DNA of 64,000 nt from Massilia sp. PAMC28688 (lineage in GTDB: Bacteria > Pseudomonadota > Gammaproteobacteria > Burkholderiales > Burkholderiaceae_D). Shown one piece after another: positions 4,185 through 15,874 of this stretch. The stretch covers positions 3,410,001 through 3,474,000 of the forward strand of contig NZ_CP080378.1 in NCBI RefSeq assembly GCF_019443445.1. The letters are read 5' to 3'. Each line of letters starts with the position of its first letter. Position 1 is the stretch's first letter. A program made the translations under genes and the position numbers. The notes beneath the pieces were generated by a model that saw only the letters and a list, made by a program, of their open reading frames with translations, searched no databases and was not told the DNA's origin.

Positions 4185-4476
4185 TTGAACGCCGCCTTTG
4201 ATCCGGCGCCCACGCTGGCCCGGGTCAAGGTGCCGGTCCTGTGGTTCCTGGGCGAGCTGGATCACAATGTGCCGTCGGCGCGCAGCTGCTCGCCGCTGCA
4301 CGCAGCGCTTCCGCTAACGGCGATATCACGGTCCAGATGCTGCCCGGCACTGGCCATTCTTTCATTCAATCGCGCACCGGCAAACAACAAGGAGTTTGCC
4401 ACCCACCCATATGGTGGCGGGCTACTGGCGCGCCTTGCAAGCCTGGCTCGGCCTGCGTGGATTTTCACGCAAATAG
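4185..4476 (+). pseudogene. Frameshifted remnant of an alpha/beta-hydrolase C-terminus
   Basis: Three reading frames in succession carry pieces of one alpha/beta-hydrolase C-terminus. The first, FDPAPTLARVKVPVLWFLGELDHNVPS, is the strand and acid-residue turn. The second, from about 4280, has NGDITVQMLPGTGHSFIQS with the catalytic-histidine region. The third, ending at the TAG at 4474-4476, reads MVAGYWRALQAWLGLRGFSRK. No single frame spans them, so at least two frameshifts occurred, and the N-terminal catalytic serine region is missing. A short signal-peptide-like peptide at 4084-4188 (MHAITLIITAAVGASA) may be the displaced start of the same gene. The remnant lies directly before the regulator at 4650. 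Confidence 0.65.
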
Positions 4477-4649
4477 AGCGGTCCCGGGACATGGCTGGGC
4501 GCCATGCGCACAGTGGGCAGTTTCCCGACATTTTTTTGAATGACGTTATCAAAGCAGTAAGCGAATATGCTCAAAGCATGGTTTTTTCGCTATGATTGAC
4601 GGGTGTCGGGATTTCCCCATGGGCTCACCCATCAATGGATCGGAATCGT

Positions 4650-5981
4650 ATGGATGCCAGACGTCTGCTATGCATTTCAGGGAAATCATCAGGCGCGCAC
4701 GGCTGCCCGCCGCTGCCTGGCTGGGACGTGGTCAATGTGCACTCGGTCGCATCGGCCCGCAATGCCTTGCGCGAGCGCGGCTTTCGCATCGGGCTGGTGG
4801 TGGCCGACGGCCCGCCCGATGTCGATGAACTGGCCGGCTTTCTCGGCGCCCAGCGCGACATGTCGTGGATCGGCCTGTTCGACTCCACCACGCTCGACTC
4901 GCCAGCCTGCCGCGATCTGGTGGCCGAATACTTTCACGATTTCCATACCTTTCCTGCCGATCCCCAGCGCCTGAGCCACACGCTGGGCCATGCGCTTGGC
5001 TGGACCGCCCTGCGGTCGCGCCGCGAAAGTGGCGTGGCCGAGCGGGCCGGGCCCGCCAACTGCCTGTCCGGCAAGAGTCCGGCCATCCAGACCCTGCGCA
5101 AGCACATCGCCAAGATTGCCAAGAGCCGGGCGCCGGTCCTCATCTGCGGCGAGAGCGGCAGCGGCAAGGAATTGACGGCCAACGCCGTGCACGCCATGTC
5201 CGAACGTGCGGCCGGCCCTTTTGTCGCCCTCAATTGCGGGGCCATGCCCCCGGCCCTGATCCAGTCCGAACTGTTCGGTTACGAACAGGGCGCCTTCACC
5301 GGCGCGGCCAAGGCCCGCGCCGGCTTGATCGAATCGGCAGAAGGCGGCACCATCTTTTTCGATGAAATTGCCGACCTGCCGCTGGACCAGCAAGCCAACC
5401 TGCTGCGCTTTTTGCAGGAAGGGACCATTTACCGCATTGGCGCCACGCGCAGCATCAAGGTCAATGCCCGCGTGGTGGCCGCCTCGCATGTGGATTTGCA
5501 CACGGCCGTGACGGCCGGGCGCTTTCGCGAAGACCTGTACTACCGGCTGCACGTGCTGCCGCTGCAGGTGCCGCCGCTGCGCGAGCGCAAGGCCGACCTG
5601 GCCGACCTGGCCTGGCATTTTTTCGAGCTCTACGCACACGAGAAAAATCCCCTGCTCAAGGGGTTCAGCAATAGCGCCCTGGCGGCCATCACCGATTATG
5701 GCTGGCCGGGCAATGTGCGCGAACTGATCAACCGGGTGCGGCGTGCCATGGTGCTGGCGGAGGGGCGCCTGATCACGCCGCAAGACCTGGGATTCAAGCC
5801 ACCGCGCCTGCCAAACGGCGACGCGCTGGGCGATACACGCGTGCGCGCCGAGCGCCAGGCCATCTGCGCCACGCTCGAACAGGCGCGCTACAACGTGTCG
5901 CAGGCCGCGCGCGAACTGGGCATTTCGCGCATGACCCTGTACCGCCTGATTGCCAAGCATGGCATTGCAATGAGCCCGTGA
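4650..5981 (+). CDS. VpsR-like sigma-54-dependent transcriptional activator
   Basis: A 443-aa enhancer-binding protein. Residues 1-120 form an N-terminal receiver-like domain without an obvious phosphoacceptor pocket, as in Vibrio VpsR. Residues about 143-375 are the AAA+ domain with Walker A GESGSGKE (167-174), an intact GAFTGA sigma-54 contact loop (214-219) and Walker B GGTIFFDEIADLP. A Fis-type helix-turn-helix (NVSQAARELGISRMTLYRLI) ends the protein. The start at MDARRLLCISG was preferred because GGA sits five bases upstream; MDRNRMDAR at 4635 and a TTG at 4596 are alternatives. It lies directly upstream of, and co-directional with, the Fap-like operon. VpsR-type proteins bind c-di-GMP and activate biofilm-matrix genes, so control of that operon is the natural inference. 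Confidence 0.85.
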   Translation: MDARRLLCISGKSSGAHGCPPLPGWDVVNVHSVASARNALRERGFRIGLVVADGPPDVDELAGFLGAQRDMSWIGLFDSTTLDSPACRDLVAEYFHDFHTFPADPQRLSHTLGHALGWTALRSRRESGVAERAGPANCLSGKSPAIQTLRKHIAKIAKSRAPVLICGESGSGKELTANAVHAMSERAAGPFVALNCGAMPPALIQSELFGYEQGAFTGAAKARAGLIESAEGGTIFFDEIADLPLDQQANLLRFLQEGTIYRIGATRSIKVNARVVAASHVDLHTAVTAGRFREDLYYRLHVLPLQVPPLRERKADLADLAWHFFELYAHEKNPLLKGFSNSALAAITDYGWPGNVRELINRVRRAMVLAEGRLITPQDLGFKPPRLPNGDALGDTRVRAERQAICATLEQARYNVSQAARELGISRMTLYRLIAKHGIAMSP

Positions 5982-6298
5982 GAATTGTCTCAGCCATGTG
6001 ACACCTCCTTGGGTGACGGAAAAATGGGAATGTCACAGCTACCGTGGGTCACTCCAAGGCTGTCACAACGTGCGCACGGCGATTCTCACTGGCCTGTCTC
6101 ACTGCTGTTACACCGCATTTCGCTGCAAAAACCTGGCTCTGGTTTGCTGAGTCTGCCTTCATCGCTTTTTCTTTTCAATTCAAACACTTGAGCTCGCTTG
6201 GGGCAGGCGGGCATGGTTGATGCTCTTACGTTCTCGCTAGACAAAAAGCGCGGGCCCAACCCGCTTGAATATCTTCTGAAAAATGTGAGGGAACTTCC
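5982..6298 (+). promoter_or_regulatory. Promoter region of Fap-like operon with five GTGAC/GTCAC half-sites
   Basis: This 317-bp gap holds no gene. GTGAC occurs at 5998 and 6013, and GTCAC at 6032, 6048 and 6062, giving centre-to-centre spacings of 14 to 19 bases. Such a cluster far upstream of the start at 6299 is what an enhancer for a bacterial activator would look like. The 3' part (6170-6298) is T-rich and then GC-rich, with a GAGGGAAC ribosome binding site just before the ATG. I looked for a sigma-54 -24/-12 element; the nearest match, TGGCTCTGGTTTGCT at 6133, has a spacing one base too short, so no promoter is assigned. Confidence 0.5.
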
Positions 6299-8350
6299 AT
6301 GAAACGTACCATCATCACCACCGCGATTGCCCTGGCTTTCGGTGCCCAGGCCTACGCTGCCGACCCTGACAACCGGGTCCGCAATGTCAGGGGTGACAAC
6401 ACCCAGACCCTGACGGCCAACAGCAACCAGTCCGCTGCCGGCGTTGCCGCCAACGACAATTCGAGCGCCAGCCAGGACAACAGCACCCGCGACGACTCCG
6501 GCCAAAACAACAGCTCGGGCAATGCCAATGCCAGCGCCATGGGCGCGGCGGCTGCCAACAATGGCGCCACCGCCACCTCCAGCCTGGCCGATTCCTTCAA
6601 TACCTCGTCGGCCACGGCAACGAGCAGCCTGGTCGGATCGGTCAGTGGCAACACCATCAACCGCATTGGCAACACGGCCACCAACAATGGCAGCAACAAT
6701 GGCGGCACCGGAAACGGCGGCATGGGGGCAGCCGCCGCCGGCGGCTCGGCCAGCGGCAGCGGCGGCAATGGCGCCAGCGCGACCGGCGGCTCGGCCTCGG
6801 CCGGTTCGGCCGGGGGCGCGGCCATGAACGGGCCTGCCAGCACCGGCAGCAGCGCGGTGGGCTCGGCCGCGGCCGGCAGCGGCGGCGATGGCGGCCTGGC
6901 ATCCGGTGCCATGAGCGGCGCCGGGGCGGCCGGCGGCGCCGGCGGCAGTGGCGGCGCCGGCGGCATGAGCGGCTCGGCCGCAGGCGGGATGACAGGCGCC
7001 GGTGGCGCCGGTGGTGCGGCGGCCGGTGGCAACGGCGGCCTGGGCGGGCTGGCACTGGGCGCTGGCGGCGGTGACAGCGGTGCCAACACCACCGGCGCCG
7101 GCGGCGCGGGCGGCGCGGCTGGCGCGGCCACGGGCGGCAGCGGCGGGGCCGGCGGCGCCGGCATGGCAGCCGGCGGCGCCGGTGGCGTGGCTGGTGCGGC
7201 CATGGGTGGCGCCGGCGGTGCCAGTGGTGCGGCGATGGGCGGCGCCGGCGGTGCCGGAGGCGCCAATGGACCCACCATGGGCGGGGCGGCTGCCACCGGT
7301 GCCGATGGCGGCGCCGGCGGCAGTGGCGGCGCCGGCGGCGCGGCCATGGGCTCGTCGGCCTCGGGCAATAACGGCGCCAGCGGCGGCGCCAGCGCCAGCG
7401 GAGCCAGCAGCGCCACCACCGGCGCGGCCGGCTCCGGCGGTTTGGGTGGCACGCCCGGCACCAGCGGCAATGCCGATGCCGGCGCGGGCCACAACAGCAC
7501 GGGCGGTGCCGGCAGCAGCGGCAGCAATACCGTGTCGGCGGGCGACGCCATGGGCGGGGGCGCCGGCAGTGGCGCTGCCGGTGGCAATGGCGGCACCGGC
7601 GGCGCCGGTGGCATGGCCAGCAGTGCCAGCGGCGCCGGTGCTGCAGCCGGCGACGGCAGCAGCGGGGCGGCCGGCAGTGGCGCCTCGGCGTCCACCGCGG
7701 GCGGCAGCGGGGCCGCCGGCACCAACACCAGCGGCGCCGGGGCCAGCGGCGGCGACGGCACCGGCGGCACCGGTGGGGCCGGCGGCGGCAGCGGCAGTGG
7801 CACCTCGGGCGCGGGCGGGGCCGGCGGCACGGCCTCCAGCATGGGCGGCGACGGCGCCGCCTCGACCGCAGGCTCGGGCGGCGCGGCCGGCACCAGCGAT
7901 GGCGGCACCAGCAATGGCGGCGCGGGCGCCTCTGGCGCGGCAGGCGGCATGGGCGGCTCGACCGGTTCGGCCTCGAATACGGCCGGCAGCGGCGCGGCGG
8001 GGGGCAATGCCTCCAATGGCAATGCCGAAAGCGGCGCTGCCACCGTCGGTGACGCCACCGGCGGGGCCGGCGGCGCCGGTGGCAGTGGTGGTGGCGGCAA
8101 CATCGGCGGCAACGGCGGCGACGGCGGCACCAATACTGCCGGCGACGCCATGGGTGGCGATGGCATGGGCGGCACTGCCGGCGACGGGGGCGCGGTCACG
8201 GTCGATGCCGGCACCTTCGACATGTCGCAAACCATGTCCAACGTGGGTCAGTCGGCCGCCGGCATTATGGTCGTGAGCCAGAACAATGGCTTCTCGTCCC
8301 TGATCCAGCAAAGCGTCAATGTCCAGTCCAATCTGGCCGTAGGCAAGTAA
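6299..8350 (+). CDS. Secreted Gly/Ala-rich repeat protein, proposed fibre subunit of Fap-like system
   Basis: A 683-aa protein with a signal peptide (residues 1-21, ending AQAYA). Residues 22-130 are Asn/Ser/Thr-rich (for example NSNQSAAGVAANDNSSASQD). Residues 130-625 are an almost uninterrupted low-complexity array of GGAGG, GGAGGA and GGSGG units with Ala, Ser, Asn and Met, superficially like mycobacterial PE_PGRS repeats. The last 50 residues return to normal complexity: FDMSQTMSNVGQSAAGIMVV, then IQQSVNVQSNLAVGK. The QSAAG word occurs in both end domains. There is no cysteine in the sequence. It is the first gene of an operon encoding C39-like, FapE-like and FapF-like proteins, so I infer it is the exported fibre or amyloid subunit (position equivalent to FapB/FapC). 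Direct similarity to FapC is not evident. Confidence 0.75.
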   Translation: MKRTIITTAIALAFGAQAYAADPDNRVRNVRGDNTQTLTANSNQSAAGVAANDNSSASQDNSTRDDSGQNNSSGNANASAMGAAAANNGATATSSLADSFNTSSATATSSLVGSVSGNTINRIGNTATNNGSNNGGTGNGGMGAAAAGGSASGSGGNGASATGGSASAGSAGGAAMNGPASTGSSAVGSAAAGSGGDGGLASGAMSGAGAAGGAGGSGGAGGMSGSAAGGMTGAGGAGGAAAGGNGGLGGLALGAGGGDSGANTTGAGGAGGAAGAATGGSGGAGGAGMAAGGAGGVAGAAMGGAGGASGAAMGGAGGAGGANGPTMGGAAATGADGGAGGSGGAGGAAMGSSASGNNGASGGASASGASSATTGAAGSGGLGGTPGTSGNADAGAGHNSTGGAGSSGSNTVSAGDAMGGGAGSGAAGGNGGTGGAGGMASSASGAGAAAGDGSSGAAGSGASASTAGGSGAAGTNTSGAGASGGDGTGGTGGAGGGSGSGTSGAGGAGGTASSMGGDGAASTAGSGGAAGTSDGGTSNGGAGASGAAGGMGGSTGSASNTAGSGAAGGNASNGNAESGAATVGDATGGAGGAGGSGGGGNIGGNGGDGGTNTAGDAMGGDGMGGTAGDGGAVTVDAGTFDMSQTMSNVGQSAAGIMVVSQNNGFSSLIQQSVNVQSNLAVGK

Positions 8351-8406
8351 GGCGACGCTGCGATGCGGGTCCTGGATCCGCATCGCAGTTCTTCAAGGAG
8401 ACGTGC

Positions 8407-8787
8407 ATGAGAACGCTGATCTTGTTTGTCCTGGCCTTAGGCGTACTGCCCGCCGCCGGTGCCAGCGAGGATGGACCCGGGGCCGCCCCGGGCGGCCCGC
8501 TGGCCATACCCGCGCTGCCTTTCCTCGATAGTGTCGCGGCCGAAGGTGAATTGGGCCAGAGCACCGCGGCCAGCATCCTGGCCGCCACCCGCGGCCGGGA
8601 AGACACCGCCAGTGCCGTGCTTGGCGGCGTCGTCACCGGCAACAGCGCCACCCAGGTCAGCACCGGGGCCAATACCATTACCGGGGGCGCGTTCGCGAAT
8701 ATGAGCGGCCTGCCCGTGGTAATCCAGAACAGCGGTGCGAACGTGCTGATCCAGAACGCCACCGTCATCAACCTCCAGCTCAGGTGA
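8407..8787 (+). CDS. Small secreted protein of the Fap-like operon
   Basis: A 126-aa exported protein with a signal peptide (about residues 1-19, cleaved near AGAS). The C-terminal half contains Asn/Gly/Thr-rich strands, NSATQVSTGANTITGG and GLPVVIQNSGANVLIQN, ending NATVINLQLR. This pattern of N/Q/G-containing strand repeats resembles minor amyloid or chaperone components such as FapA or FapB. It starts 56 bp after the Gly-rich gene with a good CAAGGAG ribosome binding site and ends 4 bp before the C39-like gene. A role as nucleator or periplasmic chaperone for the large repeat protein is an inference from gene order and composition. Confidence 0.7.
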   Translation: MRTLILFVLALGVLPAAGASEDGPGAAPGGPLAIPALPFLDSVAAEGELGQSTAASILAATRGREDTASAVLGGVVTGNSATQVSTGANTITGGAFANMSGLPVVIQNSGANVLIQNATVINLQLR

Positions 8788-8791
8788 GCTC

Positions 8792-9466
8792 ATGCGTGCA
8801 GCAATCCTCCTGTTTGTTGCCACGCTTTCGTGCCCGCCCGGCCAGGCAATGGACGTGCCCATGCCGGGCGTGGCACATTTTTCCGTCAAGGTCAGCAGCA
8901 TCGCGGCCCAGCGCTTTGCCACCACGGCGCGCCAGCAGTTCGATTTCAGCTGCGGCTCGGCGGCCCTGGCCACGCTGCTCACCTACCATTACGGCACGCC
9001 CGCCACCGAGGCGGCCATCTTCCAGCGCATGTACCAGGATGGCGACCAGGCCCGCATCCGGCGCGAAGGCTTTTCCCTGCTCGACATGAAACGCTATCTG
9101 GCCAAGCGCGGCCTGACTGCCGACGGCTTCCAGCAGCCGCTTGACAAGCTGTTCGCGAACCGCCTGCCGGCCATCGTGCTGCTGTCCGAAAACGGCTACA
9201 ACCACTTTGTCGTGGTCAAGGGTGGCGACAGCGAGCGCGTCCTGCTGGGCGACCCGTCCATTGGCACGCGCAGCCTGCCGCGCGCCCGCTTCGAGGCGCT
9301 CTGGCCCAGCAAACTGCTGTTCGTGGTGCACGGTTACAAGGGCCCCGTGACCTTCAACGGCCAGGCCGACTGGCGCGCCGCCCCCGCCGCGCCCCTGGCC
9401 CAGGCCGTGGACCGCAACACGCTGACCAGCCTGACCTTGCCACGCCATGGCCCGGGAGAATTCTGA
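8792..9466 (+). CDS. C39-peptidase-like protein, FapD-like
   Basis: A 224-aa periplasmic protein with a signal peptide (residues 1-19) and a papain-like C39 peptidase domain. Catalytic landmarks are all present: Gln48/49 and Cys54 in RQQFDFSCGSAALATLL, His138 in GYNHFVVV and Asp154 in LLGDPSIG. Stand-alone C39 domains of this sort are encoded in fap operons (FapD), where the protease is thought to process or assist secretion of the amyloid precursors. In peptide exporters the same domain cuts after a GG leader, which is notable next to a substrate made of GG-rich repeats. Its stop overlaps the start of the next gene (TGATG), indicating translational coupling. Confidence 0.85.
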   Translation: MRAAILLFVATLSCPPGQAMDVPMPGVAHFSVKVSSIAAQRFATTARQQFDFSCGSAALATLLTYHYGTPATEAAIFQRMYQDGDQARIRREGFSLLDMKRYLAKRGLTADGFQQPLDKLFANRLPAIVLLSENGYNHFVVVKGGDSERVLLGDPSIGTRSLPRARFEALWPSKLLFVVHGYKGPVTFNGQADWRAAPAAPLAQAVDRNTLTSLTLPRHGPGEF

Positions 9467-9939
9467 TGCCTGCCCTGAATAAAAAAAATGGTTTGCAAAG
9501 CTGCTGCACCGCGTTGCTGGCGCTGGCCTCGGCCGGAGCCGCGGCCCAGGACTGGGTGCCGGTCGGGCCAGAGCGCCTGGACGGCCTGCGCGGCGGATTC
9601 ATCACGCCCGCCGGCCTGCAGGTGTCGCTTGGCATCGAGCGCATCGTCAGTATCAATGGCGACGCCGTGTCGCACGTGACCCTGTTTGCGCTCGGCACGC
9701 CCGGCGCGGGCTTGGCGGGAGGCGACGCCGCGCGCCTGGTCCAGCAGGGCGGCAACAACGTGTTTGCCGGCGCGCTGGATCAGGCCGGCGCCACCTTTGT
9801 CCAGAATTCCCTGCACAACCAGACGATTCGTACCGATACCCTGATCAGCGCCAACGTCAACAGCGCCGGCCTGCTGCGGGAACTTAATTTCAGCCAGGCC
9901 CTGAGCCAGGCAGCCATTACGGCGGCGGGGTCCCGCTGA
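9466..9939 (+). CDS. Secreted FapE-like protein
   Basis: A 157-aa exported protein; the signal peptide ends near AGAAAQ (about residue 27). The mature part begins with DGLRGGFITPAGLQVSLGIER, then has N/Q-containing strands (LVQQGGNNVFAGAL and FVQNSLHNQTIRTDTLI) and ends NFSQALSQAAITAAGSR. The alternation of small, Asn and Gln residues in strand-length blocks is like the minor components of secreted amyloids. The ATG overlaps the preceding stop codon by one base. Its position between the C39-like gene and the outer-membrane barrel gene equals that of fapE. Sequence similarity alone would not name it, so the assignment rests mainly on synteny. Confidence 0.7.
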   Translation: MPALNKKNGLQSCCTALLALASAGAAAQDWVPVGPERLDGLRGGFITPAGLQVSLGIERIVSINGDAVSHVTLFALGTPGAGLAGGDAARLVQQGGNNVFAGALDQAGATFVQNSLHNQTIRTDTLISANVNSAGLLRELNFSQALSQAAITAAGSR

Positions 9940-9962
9940 CGCGCTTTTGACGGAGGATAGGC

Positions 9963-11309
9963 ATGCAGGAACAGCGGAGCATTCTTTTGGCCGGCCTTGG
10001 CGCCGGCCTCACCCTGGCCGCCGGCTGCCAGGCGGCCGGCCAGGACAGCCAGGACAGCCAGCTACAGGCCCTGGAACAGAAGCTGGCCGCCCAGGCCGGT
10101 CAGATCGCACAGCTGGCGCGCGAACTGGCGGCGCAGCGTGCCCTCGTCGAGGAGCAGCGGGCCGCCCTGGCGCGCCTGACGCCGCCGGCGAGCACAGCGC
10201 CTGAAGCGCCGCAGGTGGCGGCCACGGCGCCGCAGGAGCTCGACGAGCAGCGAGCCACCGGCGCCCAGGTGGCCGCGGCTCCTGCCCAGCCGGCCCAGCC
10301 GGCCCCGCGCCCGGCCCAGCCGGTGGGCCGCACGCCGCCGCGCCGCGACCGCCCACCCGAGGTGCCGCCACTGTTCGAGCAGCCGGGCGTGCTGACCGCG
10401 CCCGACAAATACGTGGTCGAACCTGCCCTGCAGTTCGGCTACGCTTCAAGCAACCGCGTGGCCCTGGTCGGCTATACCGTCATTCCCGCCCTCCTGATCG
10501 GGCTGATCGATGTGCGCGAAGTCAAGCGCAATACGGTGACCGGCTCGCTGTCGCTGCGCACGGGATTGAGCAAGCGGCTGGAAGTGGAGGCCAAGCTGCC
10601 TTATGTGTACCGGTCCGATGCGACCGTCAGCCGCGAGCTGTTTACCGGCACCGCGGTGGAGCGGGTGTTCGATACCAGCGGCAAGCACGTGGGCGACATC
10701 GAGCTGGCGGCACGCTACCAGCTCAACCAGGGCGGCGCGGCACGCGCCTATTACATTGGGGGGCTGCGCTTCAAGAGCCGTACCGGACGCGACCCGTTTG
10801 ACGTCGTCACCGACTGCACCACCCGCTGCGTGGGCGAGAACGTGACCGGCACCGGCCTGCCGCTGGAATTGCCCACCGGCTCGGGCTTTTATTCGCTGCA
10901 GCCAAGCCTGACCTGGCTGTTCCCGTCCGACCCGGCCATTTTCTTCGGTTCCGTCAGCTACCTGTACAACTTCGAGCGCAAGAACGTGAGCCGTACCGTG
11001 CTCAATGGCGAACGCGAGCGGATTGGCGACCTGAAGGCGGGCGCCGTGGCCGGCTTCAATTTCGGCATGGGCATCGCGCTCAACGATAAAACCTCCATCA
11101 GTTTCGGCTATGATCATAGTTCCGTAGCAAGAATGCAACAGAATGGGGCGCCGGTTCCGTCATCCGTGCGCACACAACTGGGCACCTTGGTGATAGGCTA
11201 CTCTTACCGGCTCGATGCCACACGTACGCTCAATGCATCGGTCGGGGTCGGCGTGACGCGCGACACGCCCGATGTCTCACTCACACTGCGCATGCCTTGG
11301 AGCCTCTGA
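9963..11309 (+). CDS. FapF-like outer-membrane barrel with N-terminal coiled coil
   Basis: A 448-aa outer-membrane protein. A hydrophobic signal (residues 6-24) is followed by a coiled coil (residues 33-72, rich in Gln, Ala, Leu and Glu), a Pro/Ala linker (73-135) and then about 300 residues of alternating beta-strands, for example GSLSLRTGLSKRLEVEAKLPYVY and SVSYLYNFERKNVSRTV, ending VSLTLRMPWSL. This order of coiled coil, linker and porin-like barrel is that of FapF, the trimeric channel that exports amyloid subunits in Pseudomonas. A possible lipobox (LAAGC) is present but atypical. An AGGATAG ribosome binding site precedes the ATG. It is the last Fap-like gene, and a GGDEF-EAL gene follows after 10 bp. 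Confidence 0.8.
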   Translation: MQEQRSILLAGLGAGLTLAAGCQAAGQDSQDSQLQALEQKLAAQAGQIAQLARELAAQRALVEEQRAALARLTPPASTAPEAPQVAATAPQELDEQRATGAQVAAAPAQPAQPAPRPAQPVGRTPPRRDRPPEVPPLFEQPGVLTAPDKYVVEPALQFGYASSNRVALVGYTVIPALLIGLIDVREVKRNTVTGSLSLRTGLSKRLEVEAKLPYVYRSDATVSRELFTGTAVERVFDTSGKHVGDIELAARYQLNQGGAARAYYIGGLRFKSRTGRDPFDVVTDCTTRCVGENVTGTGLPLELPTGSGFYSLQPSLTWLFPSDPAIFFGSVSYLYNFERKNVSRTVLNGERERIGDLKAGAVAGFNFGMGIALNDKTSISFGYDHSSVARMQQNGAPVPSSVRTQLGTLVIGYSYRLDATRTLNASVGVGVTRDTPDVSLTLRMPWSL

Positions 11310-11319
11310 GGAACAATAA

Positions 11320-13374
11320 ATGATGGCAGTGCAGGAGGAAGATGACCTGCTGGCGTACGCCGCCGTGGCCCCCTGGGAGTCGCGCGCCGGCACGTCTGTC
11401 GTACTGAGCGCCGGCGGCGCCCTCATGGCCGGGCTGGACGGGCCCGGCACCCAATCCCTGGCCGACTTCATGGCCCTGGTCCATCCGGGCGACCGCGCCC
11501 GCCTGGCCGAGTACCTGGGCAGCGAAGCGCGCGCCGGCCACTTTTCCGTCTCGTTCCGGGTCTGCCCGGGAACGGCCGGTCCGCGCTGGCTGACCCTGCG
11601 CGGCAGCGTGCTCGATGCCACCGGCGGCGAACTGCCCCTGATCCGCGGCCTCATCGGCGAACGGGCCGACCAGATCCACACCGATACCATTGCCGCCCGC
11701 ACCCTGAAGGCCATTGACGAAGGCATCCTGACCAGCGATGCCAGCGGACGCATCACCTACATCAACCCGGCCGGCGAAGCCTTGACCGGCTGCGCCGGCC
11801 ATCAAATCCTGGGCCTGATGGTGGACCGCGCCCTGCATTTTGTGCATCCGGACGGCTCGCCCGAATTCGAATGCGCGGTCCAGCGCTGCCTGCGCCTGCG
11901 CCAGACCGTCACCCGCGCGGCCGACTGCATCCTCTCCACCTGCGACGGACGGCGCCTCGTCATCGAGGAAGCCGCCTCGCCCATCATGGGCGCCGACGGG
12001 CAGGTCACCGGCGCCGTCATGGTCTTTCGCGACGTGAGCCACGAGCGCCACCTGCGCCAGCAACTGTCCTGGCGCGCCACCCATGACGCACTGACGGGCC
12101 TGCTCAACCGGGCCGAGTTCGAGGCCCAGCTCGCCAGCGCCTGCCAGAGCGCGGCTGCCGACGACCATCTGCACGCGCTGCTGTTCATGGACCTGGACCG
12201 CTTCAAGATCGTCAATGATACCTGCGGCCACGGCGCCGGTGACCAGCTGCTGCAAATGCTCACCAGGCTCTTGCTGGCGCACCTGCGCGAGAGCGATGTG
12301 CTGGCGCGCCTGGGCGGCGACGAGCTGGGCTTGCTGCTGCTGCACTGCCCCATGGACAAGGCCGAGCACGTGGCCAACAATTTGCGCCAGGCAGTGCGCG
12401 ACTTCCGCTTTCAGTGGGAGGAGCATGTGTTCCAGCTTGGCATCAGCATCGGCATTGCCGGCATCGTGCCGGACGGCTGTCCCGCCCGCGACATCATGAG
12501 CCGGGCCGACCAGGCCTGTTACGCCGCCAAGCAGGCGGGGCGTGACTGCGTGCGCATCTACGAGCCGAGCGCCGCCGAGCGCGCCGCCCATGCGGGCAAG
12601 GCGGCCTGGATGGCCAAGCTGCGCAGCGCCTTTGAACATGAGCGCTTCCGCCTCTATACCATGCCGATCCGGCGCCTGTCGGCGCCGGGCGACGGCAACG
12701 GGGAGGGCGGGCACGAAGAGATCCTGGTGCGCATGTCCACCGAAAGCGATGGCGTGCTGCTGCCCGGCGCCTTCCTGCCGGCGGCCGAACGGCACGAAAT
12801 GATGACGGCGATCGACCGCTGGGTGATTGACGCGCTATGCCGCTACATGCACCAGCAGCAGCTGGCCGACCCCGGGTGGGGCGCGCTGTGCTCGGTCAAC
12901 CTGTCGCCGGCTTCCATGAGCGAGCCGGGCATGGCCCGCTTCGTGGCCGACTGCTTTGCCCGCCACGCCGTCACGCCATCCATGTTCTGCATCGAAATAG
13001 ACGAATCGGCCATGGCGGCGGCGCCCCATGCGGCGCGCGAACTGGTGCAGGAACTGCGCGGCAGTGGTTGCCGCTTTACGCTTGACAATTTTGGCGGTGC
13101 CATGTCGTCCTTTGCCACGCTCAAGCAGGTCCCGGTGGACTTCTTGAAAATTGACGGCATGCTGGTACGCGGCAGCGCGAGCGACCCCATGTGCCGGGTG
13201 ATGGTGCGCGCCATCAGCGATGTGGCCCATACGATGGGCATGCAGACCGTGGCCGGGCATGTGGAAAATGACGACATCCTGCACGCCCTGGATGATTTGG
13301 GCATCGATTTCGTGCAGGGGTATGCCATCGGCCAGGCGCAGCCGCTGCCGGAGCGGCGCTACCTCATGCATTGA
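11320..13374 (+). CDS. PAS-GGDEF-EAL cyclic-di-GMP protein
   Basis: A 684-aa cytoplasmic protein with no membrane segments. Two PAS-like domains occupy about residues 20-115 and 125-240. A GGDEF domain follows, with DLDRFKIVNDTCGHGAGDQLL, signature GGDEL (332-336) and an RxxD inhibitory site (RESD, 323-326), so diguanylate cyclase activity is plausible. The C-terminal EAL domain starts near residue 445 and keeps EILVR (467-471), SVNLSPAS and LKIDG. However, the DDFG motif is DNFG, and the glutamate of the VAEGVE motif is missing (VAGHVEN), so hydrolysis is probably weak or lost. The gene begins 10 bp after the FapF-like gene with the GAGGAA ribosome binding site overlapping its end, so the two are likely co-transcribed. 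Confidence 0.9.
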   Translation: MMAVQEEDDLLAYAAVAPWESRAGTSVVLSAGGALMAGLDGPGTQSLADFMALVHPGDRARLAEYLGSEARAGHFSVSFRVCPGTAGPRWLTLRGSVLDATGGELPLIRGLIGERADQIHTDTIAARTLKAIDEGILTSDASGRITYINPAGEALTGCAGHQILGLMVDRALHFVHPDGSPEFECAVQRCLRLRQTVTRAADCILSTCDGRRLVIEEAASPIMGADGQVTGAVMVFRDVSHERHLRQQLSWRATHDALTGLLNRAEFEAQLASACQSAAADDHLHALLFMDLDRFKIVNDTCGHGAGDQLLQMLTRLLLAHLRESDVLARLGGDELGLLLLHCPMDKAEHVANNLRQAVRDFRFQWEEHVFQLGISIGIAGIVPDGCPARDIMSRADQACYAAKQAGRDCVRIYEPSAAERAAHAGKAAWMAKLRSAFEHERFRLYTMPIRRLSAPGDGNGEGGHEEILVRMSTESDGVLLPGAFLPAAERHEMMTAIDRWVIDALCRYMHQQQLADPGWGALCSVNLSPASMSEPGMARFVADCFARHAVTPSMFCIEIDESAMAAAPHAARELVQELRGSGCRFTLDNFGGAMSSFATLKQVPVDFLKIDGMLVRGSASDPMCRVMVRAISDVAHTMGMQTVAGHVENDDILHALDDLGIDFVQGYAIGQAQPLPERRYLMH

Positions 13375-13662: not shown

Positions 13663-13771
13663 GGCGCCATTCTAGGCCAGTCCCAGGCAATTGTCATGGC
13701 GCGCAGCCCGCGCCGGGAACCAAGCCGGGGCAGGGCGGTCCAACCCGGATCACAACCGGTGGTGTGCAGTC

Positions 13772-15874
13772 ATGGCAATCGCCCAATTTATCCGTGCCCA
13801 CATCGCGGCCATCCTGGACGAATGGGAGCAGTTTGCGCGCAGCCTGCCCATTGCCCGCAAGCTCAGCCGGGAAGCCCTGCGCGACCATGCGCGCGGCATT
13901 CTCCTTGCCATTGCCGATGACCTCGAGCGCGAGCAAAGCGCGGCGCAGGCCGAGGTCAAGTCCAAGGGGGGCGGCGTGCCCGTGTCCCCTTCGAGCGCGG
14001 CCGGCCTGCATGGGGCCGACCGCCTGGTGGAGGGCTTCACGGTCAACGATGCCATGTCGGAATACCGGGCCCTGCGGGCCTGCATCGTGCGCCTGTGGAC
14101 GCAGCAGGCAGGGACCGGGCGCGATGGCGCCTGCGCCGACCTGATCAGGTTCAACGAAGCCATCGACCAGGCCTTGACGGACTCCCTCGACGGCTATTCC
14201 GATGACCGGGAGCGCCGGGGCCGCTTGTACGATACCTTGCTGTCGGTCTCGCCCGACCTGTCGTTTGTGGTCGATCACGAAGCACGCCTTGTGTACGGCA
14301 ATGCCGCCCTGGCCAGCGAGGTGGGGGCGCCGCTGAGCGCGTTGCGCGGCCAGCGCCTGGCCGATCTGAACGGCTTTCGTCAGAGCATGCTCGCAGAACA
14401 TGTGGCGGCCGTGTTCCGCACGCGCGCGGCCACGCTGGGCGAATTCACGCGCCAGCGCAGCGGGCGCCCGGTCACGTATGAATACCTGCTGGTCCCGGTG
14501 GGCGGGGCCGAGGAAGCTGTCGAGGCGGTGGCCGGCATTGCGCGGGACATCTCGCAGCGCAAGGCAACGGAAGAAAAATACCGGCGCGGCGCCCATTATG
14601 ATGATCTGACGGGGCTGCCCAACCGCAACCTGTTCAGCGACCGGCTGCATCACGAAATCGAACGCGCGCGCCGCCTTGGTCTGCCGCTGGCGCTCATGTT
14701 CATCGATCTCGACGGCTTCAAACAAGTCAACGATCTGCTGGGCCACCAGGCCGGCGACGAATTGCTGCGCCAGGCGGCGGCCCGTCTGCGGGGCTGCGTG
14801 CGCGGCGCCGACACCGTGGCGCGCCTGGCCGGCGACGAATTTACCGTCATCCTCAGCGAAATCCGGCACATGCCCCATGTGTACGTCCTGGCCCAGCATA
14901 TCCTTGATGAGCTGGCGCGCGAATTCACCCTGGGCGAGCGCAAGGTCGTCATTTCCGCCAGCCTCGGCGTTGCCATCAGTCCCCAGGATGGGGCGGATGC
15001 CGCCGTGCTGCTGCGCCATGCAGACCAGGCAATGTATGCGGCCAAGCAGGCCGGCCGCAACCGCTATTGCTTGTTCACGCCCGAAATGCGGCACGCCGCA
15101 TGGCAGCGCCGCGCCCGCGTTGCCGAACTGCGCCAGGCGATGGCCCTGCATCAGCTCAAGGTCTTGTATCAGCCCATCGTGGCGCTGGCTGACAGAGCCG
15201 TCATCGGTGCCGAAGCGCAGCTATGCTGGCAGCATCCGCAACAGGGCCTGCTGGCCTCGTCCAGCTTTGCGGATCTTGCCGCCGAGGCAGGCCTGACGGG
15301 CGAGCTGGACGGCCTCGTGATGGCCGACGCACTTTCTCATGCAAAGCAGTGGGCGGACAGCACGGGCACGGCATTTCCCATCAGTATAGAAAGCGCGTCC
15401 TTTGTGTTCGATGGGGCAGGCAGCGGGCCGCAGGTGCGCGCCATTATGGACCAGCTGCCCCAGGCGGGCGCCCCGGTGGCGCTGGAAGTGACCGAGGACA
15501 TGCTGCTCAGCGACGCGCCCGGCGGCCGGGCCATGCTGGCCCAGCTTGCCAGCGCCGGCGTCATGCTGACGCTGGATAATTTTGGCAGCGGCCGTTCGGC
15601 GCTGGCCAGCCTCACCTCGTTGCCTCTGGCCGGCCTGCGCCTGGCGCCGGCACTGGTACGCGACCTCGCCCAGACCATGCCCCGATCCCTGGCGCTTGGC
15701 ATCATTGCCGCCTGTCATGGCATGGGATTGATGGTGGTCGCCGAAGGGGTGGCCACCCCGGAACAGGCGAATTGTTTGCTGGAACTTGACTGCGATTATG
15801 CCCAGGGCGACCACTTCTACCGGCCGATGGCGCCGGAGGCGCTGCACAGCCTGATCGTGGGGCCGCAGCCTTGA
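13772..15874 (+). CDS. RsbR-N/PAS/GGDEF protein with degenerate EAL domain
   Basis: A 700-aa cytoplasmic protein. Residues 1-150 resemble the helical RsbR/RsbRD sensor domain (MAIAQFIRAHIAAILDEWEQF). Residues 160-270 form a PAS domain and residues 275-440 a GGDEF domain with AGDEF (353-357) and an upstream RGAD inhibitory site. The C-terminal EAL domain is clearly degenerate: EALLRW is EAQLCW, the VNLS asparagine motif is SIES, DDFG is DNFG, and the LKID motif is LRLAP. It is probably a cyclase whose EAL part serves as a sensor or docking module. The start at MAIAQF was chosen because the sensor domain begins there; the frame is open 27 codons further upstream. Confidence 0.88.
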   Translation: MAIAQFIRAHIAAILDEWEQFARSLPIARKLSREALRDHARGILLAIADDLEREQSAAQAEVKSKGGGVPVSPSSAAGLHGADRLVEGFTVNDAMSEYRALRACIVRLWTQQAGTGRDGACADLIRFNEAIDQALTDSLDGYSDDRERRGRLYDTLLSVSPDLSFVVDHEARLVYGNAALASEVGAPLSALRGQRLADLNGFRQSMLAEHVAAVFRTRAATLGEFTRQRSGRPVTYEYLLVPVGGAEEAVEAVAGIARDISQRKATEEKYRRGAHYDDLTGLPNRNLFSDRLHHEIERARRLGLPLALMFIDLDGFKQVNDLLGHQAGDELLRQAAARLRGCVRGADTVARLAGDEFTVILSEIRHMPHVYVLAQHILDELAREFTLGERKVVISASLGVAISPQDGADAAVLLRHADQAMYAAKQAGRNRYCLFTPEMRHAAWQRRARVAELRQAMALHQLKVLYQPIVALADRAVIGAEAQLCWQHPQQGLLASSSFADLAAEAGLTGELDGLVMADALSHAKQWADSTGTAFPISIESASFVFDGAGSGPQVRAIMDQLPQAGAPVALEVTEDMLLSDAPGGRAMLAQLASAGVMLTLDNFGSGRSALASLTSLPLAGLRLAPALVRDLAQTMPRSLALGIIAACHGMGLMVVAEGVATPEQANCLLELDCDYAQGDHFYRPMAPEALHSLIVGPQP

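Follow-up and report, generated by a model that had tools for sequence, protein, structure and literature searches.

The closest described counterparts of the locus treated here are the Fap systems of Pseudomonas, which export the amyloid of biofilms and in which the subunit genes are followed by fapD, fapE and fapF, with FapD a C39 peptidase and FapF an outer-membrane barrel carrying a coiled coil. FapD is periplasmic, and its C38A exchange abolishes secretion of FapC in Pseudomonas (PMC5557850). The same 2017 structural paper terms the target of FapD unclear and describes FapE alone as fully processed at its N-terminus and the FapF linker as possibly processed; a 2025 review goes no further than suggesting that FapD processes the N-terminus of FapE and that portion of FapF which lies in the periplasm (PMC12822426). 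No mapped FapD cleavage site was found in the open-licence Fap literature that we examined. Here we describe a Fap-type operon in a stretch of 64,000 nucleotides from Massilia sp. PAMC28688 (contig NZ_CP080378.1, positions 3,410,001 to 3,474,000 of the forward strand; hereafter the window). Five co-directional genes are present on the plus strand at 6299..11309, where a sequence-only reading of the window had placed them. The locus is a Fap variant, with the same pore and peptidase and a different cargo. As a diverged Fap-type export operon it probably has a C39 peptidase whose clients are two minor subunits (P2 and P4) and the linker of the FapF-type barrel, with the glycine-rich protein P1 left uncut as the bulk of a fibre or matrix.

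Gene 3 (8792..9466, plus strand, 224 aa) encodes a FapD-type C39 cysteine peptidase with a signal-peptide-like start. It matches Pfam Peptidase_C39 at 1.1e-20 and NCBIfam FapD at 2.9e-36 (124.8 bits, below the model's cut-off of 330), and the Cys/His/Asp residues that had been read as intact are Cys54, His138 and Asp154, invariant in 122/122 proteins (the window plus the 121 loci introduced below, redundant ones included). Gene 5 (9963..11309, plus strand, 448 aa) encodes the outer-membrane barrel, which a profile search assigned to the FapF family and not to an unrelated one. Its single-chain AlphaFold model agrees with the coiled coil plus barrel proposed earlier: a predicted coiled coil at residues 30-72 (block pLDDT, the predicted local distance difference test score, of 88-96 over residues 31-70) is followed by a linker and a barrel at about 150-443. 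A FapF-family barrel with coiled coil and a FapD-type peptidase with intact catalytic residues thus bear out the divergent Fap system claimed at the outset. Gene 3 also matches the FilB model (9.2e-34) and the barrel the FilC model (2.3e-14) of the Fil 'putative pilus' proteins, but both score below the FapD and FapF models and no further Fil model was matched. FilB and FilC are Acinetobacter proteins.

The remaining genes, all on the plus strand, encode P1 (gene 1, 6299..8350, 683 aa), a secreted Gly/Ala-rich major subunit recognised by its open reading frame (ORF), composition and homologues; P2 (gene 2, 8407..8787, 126 aa), a small secreted protein and candidate nucleator; and P4 (gene 4, 9466..9939, 157 aa), a secreted protein at the FapE position with homologues in the protein database. 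The gene order, subunits-D-E-F, is that of Pseudomonas, as is an LxxxRG motif in the FapE-position protein. In contrast to Pseudomonas, no FapA was seen here, P1 and P2 have no detectable Fap repeats or FapC/FapB match, P1 is Gly-rich and Cys-free, the motif usually reads RGG instead of RGR/RGK, and a VpsR-type sigma-54 activator lies upstream. A complete second copy with the same gene order, activator included, is located at about C1:632500-638490 of the same genome, and the operon is therefore not a chance assembly.

For comparison we used 121 loci, comprising the second copy from the window's own genome, 40 loci from genomes of the same family obtained from matches to the FapD model, and the best 80 of 135 confirmed relatives; 86 of the 111 loci with P2 are non-redundant. 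Genes were called from stop to stop with guessed starts, and some rows without a motif are wrong starts or fragments (P4 at loci L042, L152, L154 and L158; FapF at L124 and L145, which have coiled coil and motif upstream). One row, L103, a wrong-frame reading, was left out.

The double-glycine leaders recognised by C39 exporters follow the consensus LSxxELxxIxGG. A leader-like pattern, L...RG, was found among the non-redundant loci in 79/85 P4 (shuffled mean 7.7) and 68/86 P2 (shuffled mean 3.4), as well as in 64/83 of all FapF homologues (shuffled mean 22.8). P1 and the C39 proteins served as internal negatives, with 2/67 against a shuffled mean of 2.5, i.e. background, and 16/86 against 12.0, respectively. 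Where the N-terminal region of FapF spans ≥75 residues, the strict motif is present in 60/69 (shuffled 5.7) and the relaxed form in 63/69. Leu at -7, Arg at -3 and Gly at -2 belong to the search pattern, while positions -12 and -1 were scored beyond the searched letters: in P4, -12 is V/L/I in 73/79 motifs and -1 is G in 78/79; in P2, -12 is V/L/I/M in 50/68 and -1 is G in 64/68. FapF motifs are weaker (V/L/I/M at -12 in 35/59, and usually T or A at -1). The window carries the P4 motif at 9562..9597 (VGPERLDGLRGG; predicted FapD cut before F), the P2 motif at 8578..8598 (LAATRGR) and a variant in the FapF linker at 10239..10262 (LDEQRATG), which overlaps a predicted short helix at residues 91-98, all on the plus strand. 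A double-glycine motif in FapF has been noted before (PMC5135000).

L...RGGF is also present in 48 of 49 database homologues of P4, the one exception being truncated, and the LxxxRG motif extends to FapE itself. In genuine fap loci FapE mostly reads LxxxRG[RK][FY]; wider FapE sets contain the motif in 29/30 proteins (the exception again truncated), in strict form in 22/26 with V, I or C at -3 in the other four, and the single FapE above the NCBI FapE cut-off carries it. With hhalign, the P4 motif together with the residues after it is aligned to FapE (Prob 79.6, E 1.5e-5), the match being not significant once the motif is removed; the NCBIfam FapE model does not match P4. These patterns suggest that FapE has a leader of the double-glycine type in which R or K occupies -1, whereas GG is retained in the glycine-rich branch. 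Exact candidate FapD sites follow from a motif that FapE has across Fap systems and that recurs here in P2, in P4 and in the linker of FapF. We found no report of the LxxxRG motif or of a glycine-rich Fap cargo in the open-licence literature that we searched. Because the motif is present in P4, P2 and FapF linkers and at background in P1, the minor subunits and the pore are likelier clients than the GG repeats, and it is more likely, judging from the motif, that the peptidase trims the former, at the cleavage sites predicted above, than the latter.

We propose the following route. P1, P2, P4, the peptidase and the barrel, which all have signal-peptide-like N-termini, would cross the inner membrane via Sec, and the barrel, as a member of the FapF family, would form a trimeric outer-membrane pore. 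Three proteins, P2, P4 and FapF (in its linker), contain the second leader LxxxRG[G/R/K/T], which the periplasmic FapD-type peptidase would recognise and cut; minor subunits and pore would be licensed in this way. The motif-free P1 would exit uncut and make up most of a fibre or matrix at the surface, P2 being a putative nucleator and P4 a putative FapE-like anchor, while the upstream VpsR-type sigma-54 activator probably controls expression. We give about even chances to a broader form of this proposal, in which FapD-type C39 proteins make up a class of peptidases that act in the periplasm on a second leader, a double-glycine-like one carried by their Sec-exported clients: here the peptidase would trim P2, P4 and the FapF linker at the matched sites and so switch on export of an uncut fibre, and the same rule, if true, would fix the cut site of FapE in classical Fap systems.

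The second-leader rule may also hold at C39 loci with unrelated cargo. Nine divergent C39 loci from genomes of the same family lack P2 and P4, and in several of seven divergent loci the neighbouring signal-peptide proteins contain LSDxxLSxVxG[GQR] or LTxxQMDxVTAG. Regular expressions shaped on these seven loci matched 21/54 (loose) and 9/54 (strict) signal-peptide proteins over the nine loci, compared with 4/130 and 0/130 controls; frozen and applied to the previously inspected locus L192, they matched 2/8 and 1/8. A canonical pattern built on the exporter consensus matched 11/54 signal-peptide proteins in the nine inspected loci and 4/31 in six fresh loci, against 0/130 controls. Of the four fresh matches, three are paralogues from a single locus and one is the C39 gene itself. 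Support for the second-leader pattern from the fresh loci is weak.

A number of points count against cleavage at this motif. The motif was chosen after inspecting these sequences, so that the shuffled controls do not correct for its choice, and its position -1 is not fixed (G, R, K, T, A). P4 and FapE show no significant alignment outside it (hhalign Prob 1). The linkers of genuine FapF proteins are mostly without the motif, and the window's own FapF fits the relaxed form only; the N-terminus is short in 14/83 FapF homologues, including the two wrong starts mentioned above, and up to 12 have no linker. At five fresh annotated C39 loci the frozen expressions matched 1/24 (loose) and 0/24 (strict) signal-peptide proteins, and at the unannotated locus L243 they matched 0/4. 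Finally, one published model has FapD modify FapC itself, the major subunit (PMC10638192).

Two further readings concern the nature of P1. As claimed from the sequence, P1 is a Gly/Ala-rich repeat protein with a signal-peptide-like start, containing 33% Gly, 23% Ala, 74 GG dipeptides and no Cys. Alternative frames over gene 1, including antisense ones, are likewise open because the GC content reaches 82%, but differences from the window at codon positions 1/2/3 number 650/401/1211 (67 homologues, conserved C-terminal stretch of 40 codons), as expected for a coding frame. P1 matches nothing in Pfam or NCBIfam up to E 1 or in the Protein Data Bank (PDB) at E 0.01. The Gly share ranges from 17 to 37% across 67 complete non-redundant P1, and two tandem glycine-rich genes occur at some loci. 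The C-terminal 50 residues (8198..8347, plus strand) are conserved, and a profile of P1 C-termini matches 60/86 P2 at an independent E-value (iE) <1e-3, while shuffled P2 gave 0 in three trials; hhalign of P1 C-termini against P2 gave 84.7%. The reverse direction is weaker, the P2-only profile matching 16/67 P1 C-termini and 0/67 full-length P1, and the relation is thus supported mainly in one direction, from the P1 C-terminal profile to P2.

This common C-terminal unit resembles, by analogy, the relation of FapC to FapB with their common repeats. Together with the great variation of published FapC linkers (PMC3792158), it makes it possible, though we hold the idea tentatively, that P1 is a very divergent FapC whose conserved ends form cross-beta amyloid and whose Gly-rich part is a long linker. 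Against this, a Fap-repeat profile gave nothing at iE <1e-3 in P1, P2 or P4 (best 0.025), and hhalign likewise nothing significant. The NCBIfam FapB and FapC models do not match P1 or P2 up to E 1, although each positive control is recognised by the corresponding model (1.0e-21 to 2.3e-62), so that the earlier statement that no FapC is recognisable holds. The C-terminal CXXC of FapC (PMC5135000) is absent from P1 as well.

Rather doubtful is the second reading, that P1 is a polyglycine-II-type, PGRS-like material rather than amyloid. Its Gly-Gly autocorrelation at lag 3 is modestly raised (0.54 versus 0.42 shuffled; z >3 in 47/67 homologues), and X in GGXGG is mostly Ala, Asn, Ser or Asp. Yet the core of the window's P1 lacks a run of five strict GGX triplets, the PDB offers no match, and the cargo is not Gly-rich everywhere: at five outlying loci (Polymorphobacter, Croceicoccus, Indioceanicola and two further genomes) the cargo-position gene encodes only 7 to 17% Gly, with higher Asn, Ser or Thr at three of the five. 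With mycobacterial PE_PGRS proteins P1 has in common that an exported protein carries a low-complexity domain rich in Gly and biased to GGX. This similarity is compositional only; P1 has no PE domain, and the export route differs. The cargo range of Fap-type pores may widen to a large glycine-rich protein in Burkholderiales and to low-glycine proteins at a few outlying loci.

The motif could further serve FapD or FapF as a signal for docking or secretion that is bound and not cut, with the C39 protein as chaperone. C39-like domains that do not cut have been described (PMC5557850, PMC6173800, PMC5135000), and the variable -1 residue would fit, but the invariance of Cys, His and Asp and the secretion defect of FapD C38A in Pseudomonas make this improbable. 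Compared with the C39 domains of bacteriocin exporters of the ATP-binding cassette (ABC) type, the peptidase here has the same catalytic residues and a similar client motif, but it is a separate protein that begins with a signal-peptide-like stretch, and in its clients the leader comes after a signal peptide. That the peptidase processes the GG repeats of P1, as had been implied by their position beside an intact C39 enzyme and would suit the model of FapC modification, was rejected on the motif counts and is very improbable, as P2, P4 and FapF carry the leader-like motif that P1 lacks and the peptidase is kept at the outlying loci with low-glycine cargo.

In the 121 loci we found the C39 gene in 121, FapF in 118, P2 in 111, P4 in 110 and the P1 C-terminal profile (counted outside P2) in 100. 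All five genes are present at 98 loci and P2, C39, P4 and FapF at 108, with FapF on the opposite strand in 35 of the latter. Eleven loci have P2 without a P1 profile match, but at least three of them (L043, L052, L070) nevertheless contain P1. Hosts include Massilia, Duganella, Rugamonas, Pseudoduganella, Cupriavidus, Paraburkholderia and Burkholderia, and further Rhodoferax, Azohydromonas, Lysobacter, Pseudoxanthomonas, Nitrosomonas and Denitromonas. The branch is not rare: when 399 genomes of the order were sampled, 32, among them that of the window, proved to encode a barrel matching FapF with an E-value of 1e-40 or better. A 2025 census demanded FapB/C repeats ≤5000 bp from other fap genes (PMC12822426), and the glycine-rich branch would therefore escape its listing.

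Upstream of the operon, 4596..5981 (plus strand) encodes a sigma-54 enhancer-binding activator with a VpsR-type N-domain, the likely operon regulator (Pfam Sigma54_activat 4.7e-67, VpsR 1.3e-11, HTH_8 1.4e-11). A homologue is present at 68/121 loci and shares its strand with the C39 gene in 58 of them. The site TGG[CT]-N7-[TC]TGC occurs upstream of 29/67 gene-1 homologues (shuffled mean 1.58, maximum 5), and 28 of 31 sigma-54-like sites lie at -79 to -100. Upstream of the window's gene 1 no strict sigma-54 site was matched; only a degenerate sigma-54-like promoter with GG-N10-GC spacing, weak on its own, is located 90 bp before the gene (6209..6224, plus strand).

Some minor observations concern single loci and the surroundings of the operon. 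FapF lacks coiled coil and linker at L056, L085, L087, L092, L096, L098, L099 and L113, mostly from Duganella and Rugamonas; at the same eight loci the P2 motif is degenerate (HAG or KRAG), which hints at co-loss with the FapF linker. Three loci from same-family genomes (L062, L064, L072) combine the C39 gene with a short FapF-like barrel, a FadL-looking protein and LSDxxLSxVxG[GQR]-type leaders on nearby signal-peptide proteins, and L075 and L076 encode several small secreted proteins with a common LTxxQMDxVTAG after the signal peptide, again with a C39 gene in the locus. The Fap-type loci L195, L196, L197, L204 and L211 contain an extra small secreted protein; these proteins share ILWDE as a motif and have a stretch that resembles a leader (SELHEISGK type). 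Directly downstream of the operon in the window, 11320-13374 encodes a PAS/GGDEF/EAL protein and 13691-15874 a second protein that resembles it by eye, which would fit control by cyclic di-GMP (c-di-GMP); downstream of the second operon copy lies an unrelated gene. A short open frame at 4185-4595 looks by eye like a piece of an alpha/beta hydrolase and is perhaps a gene remnant.

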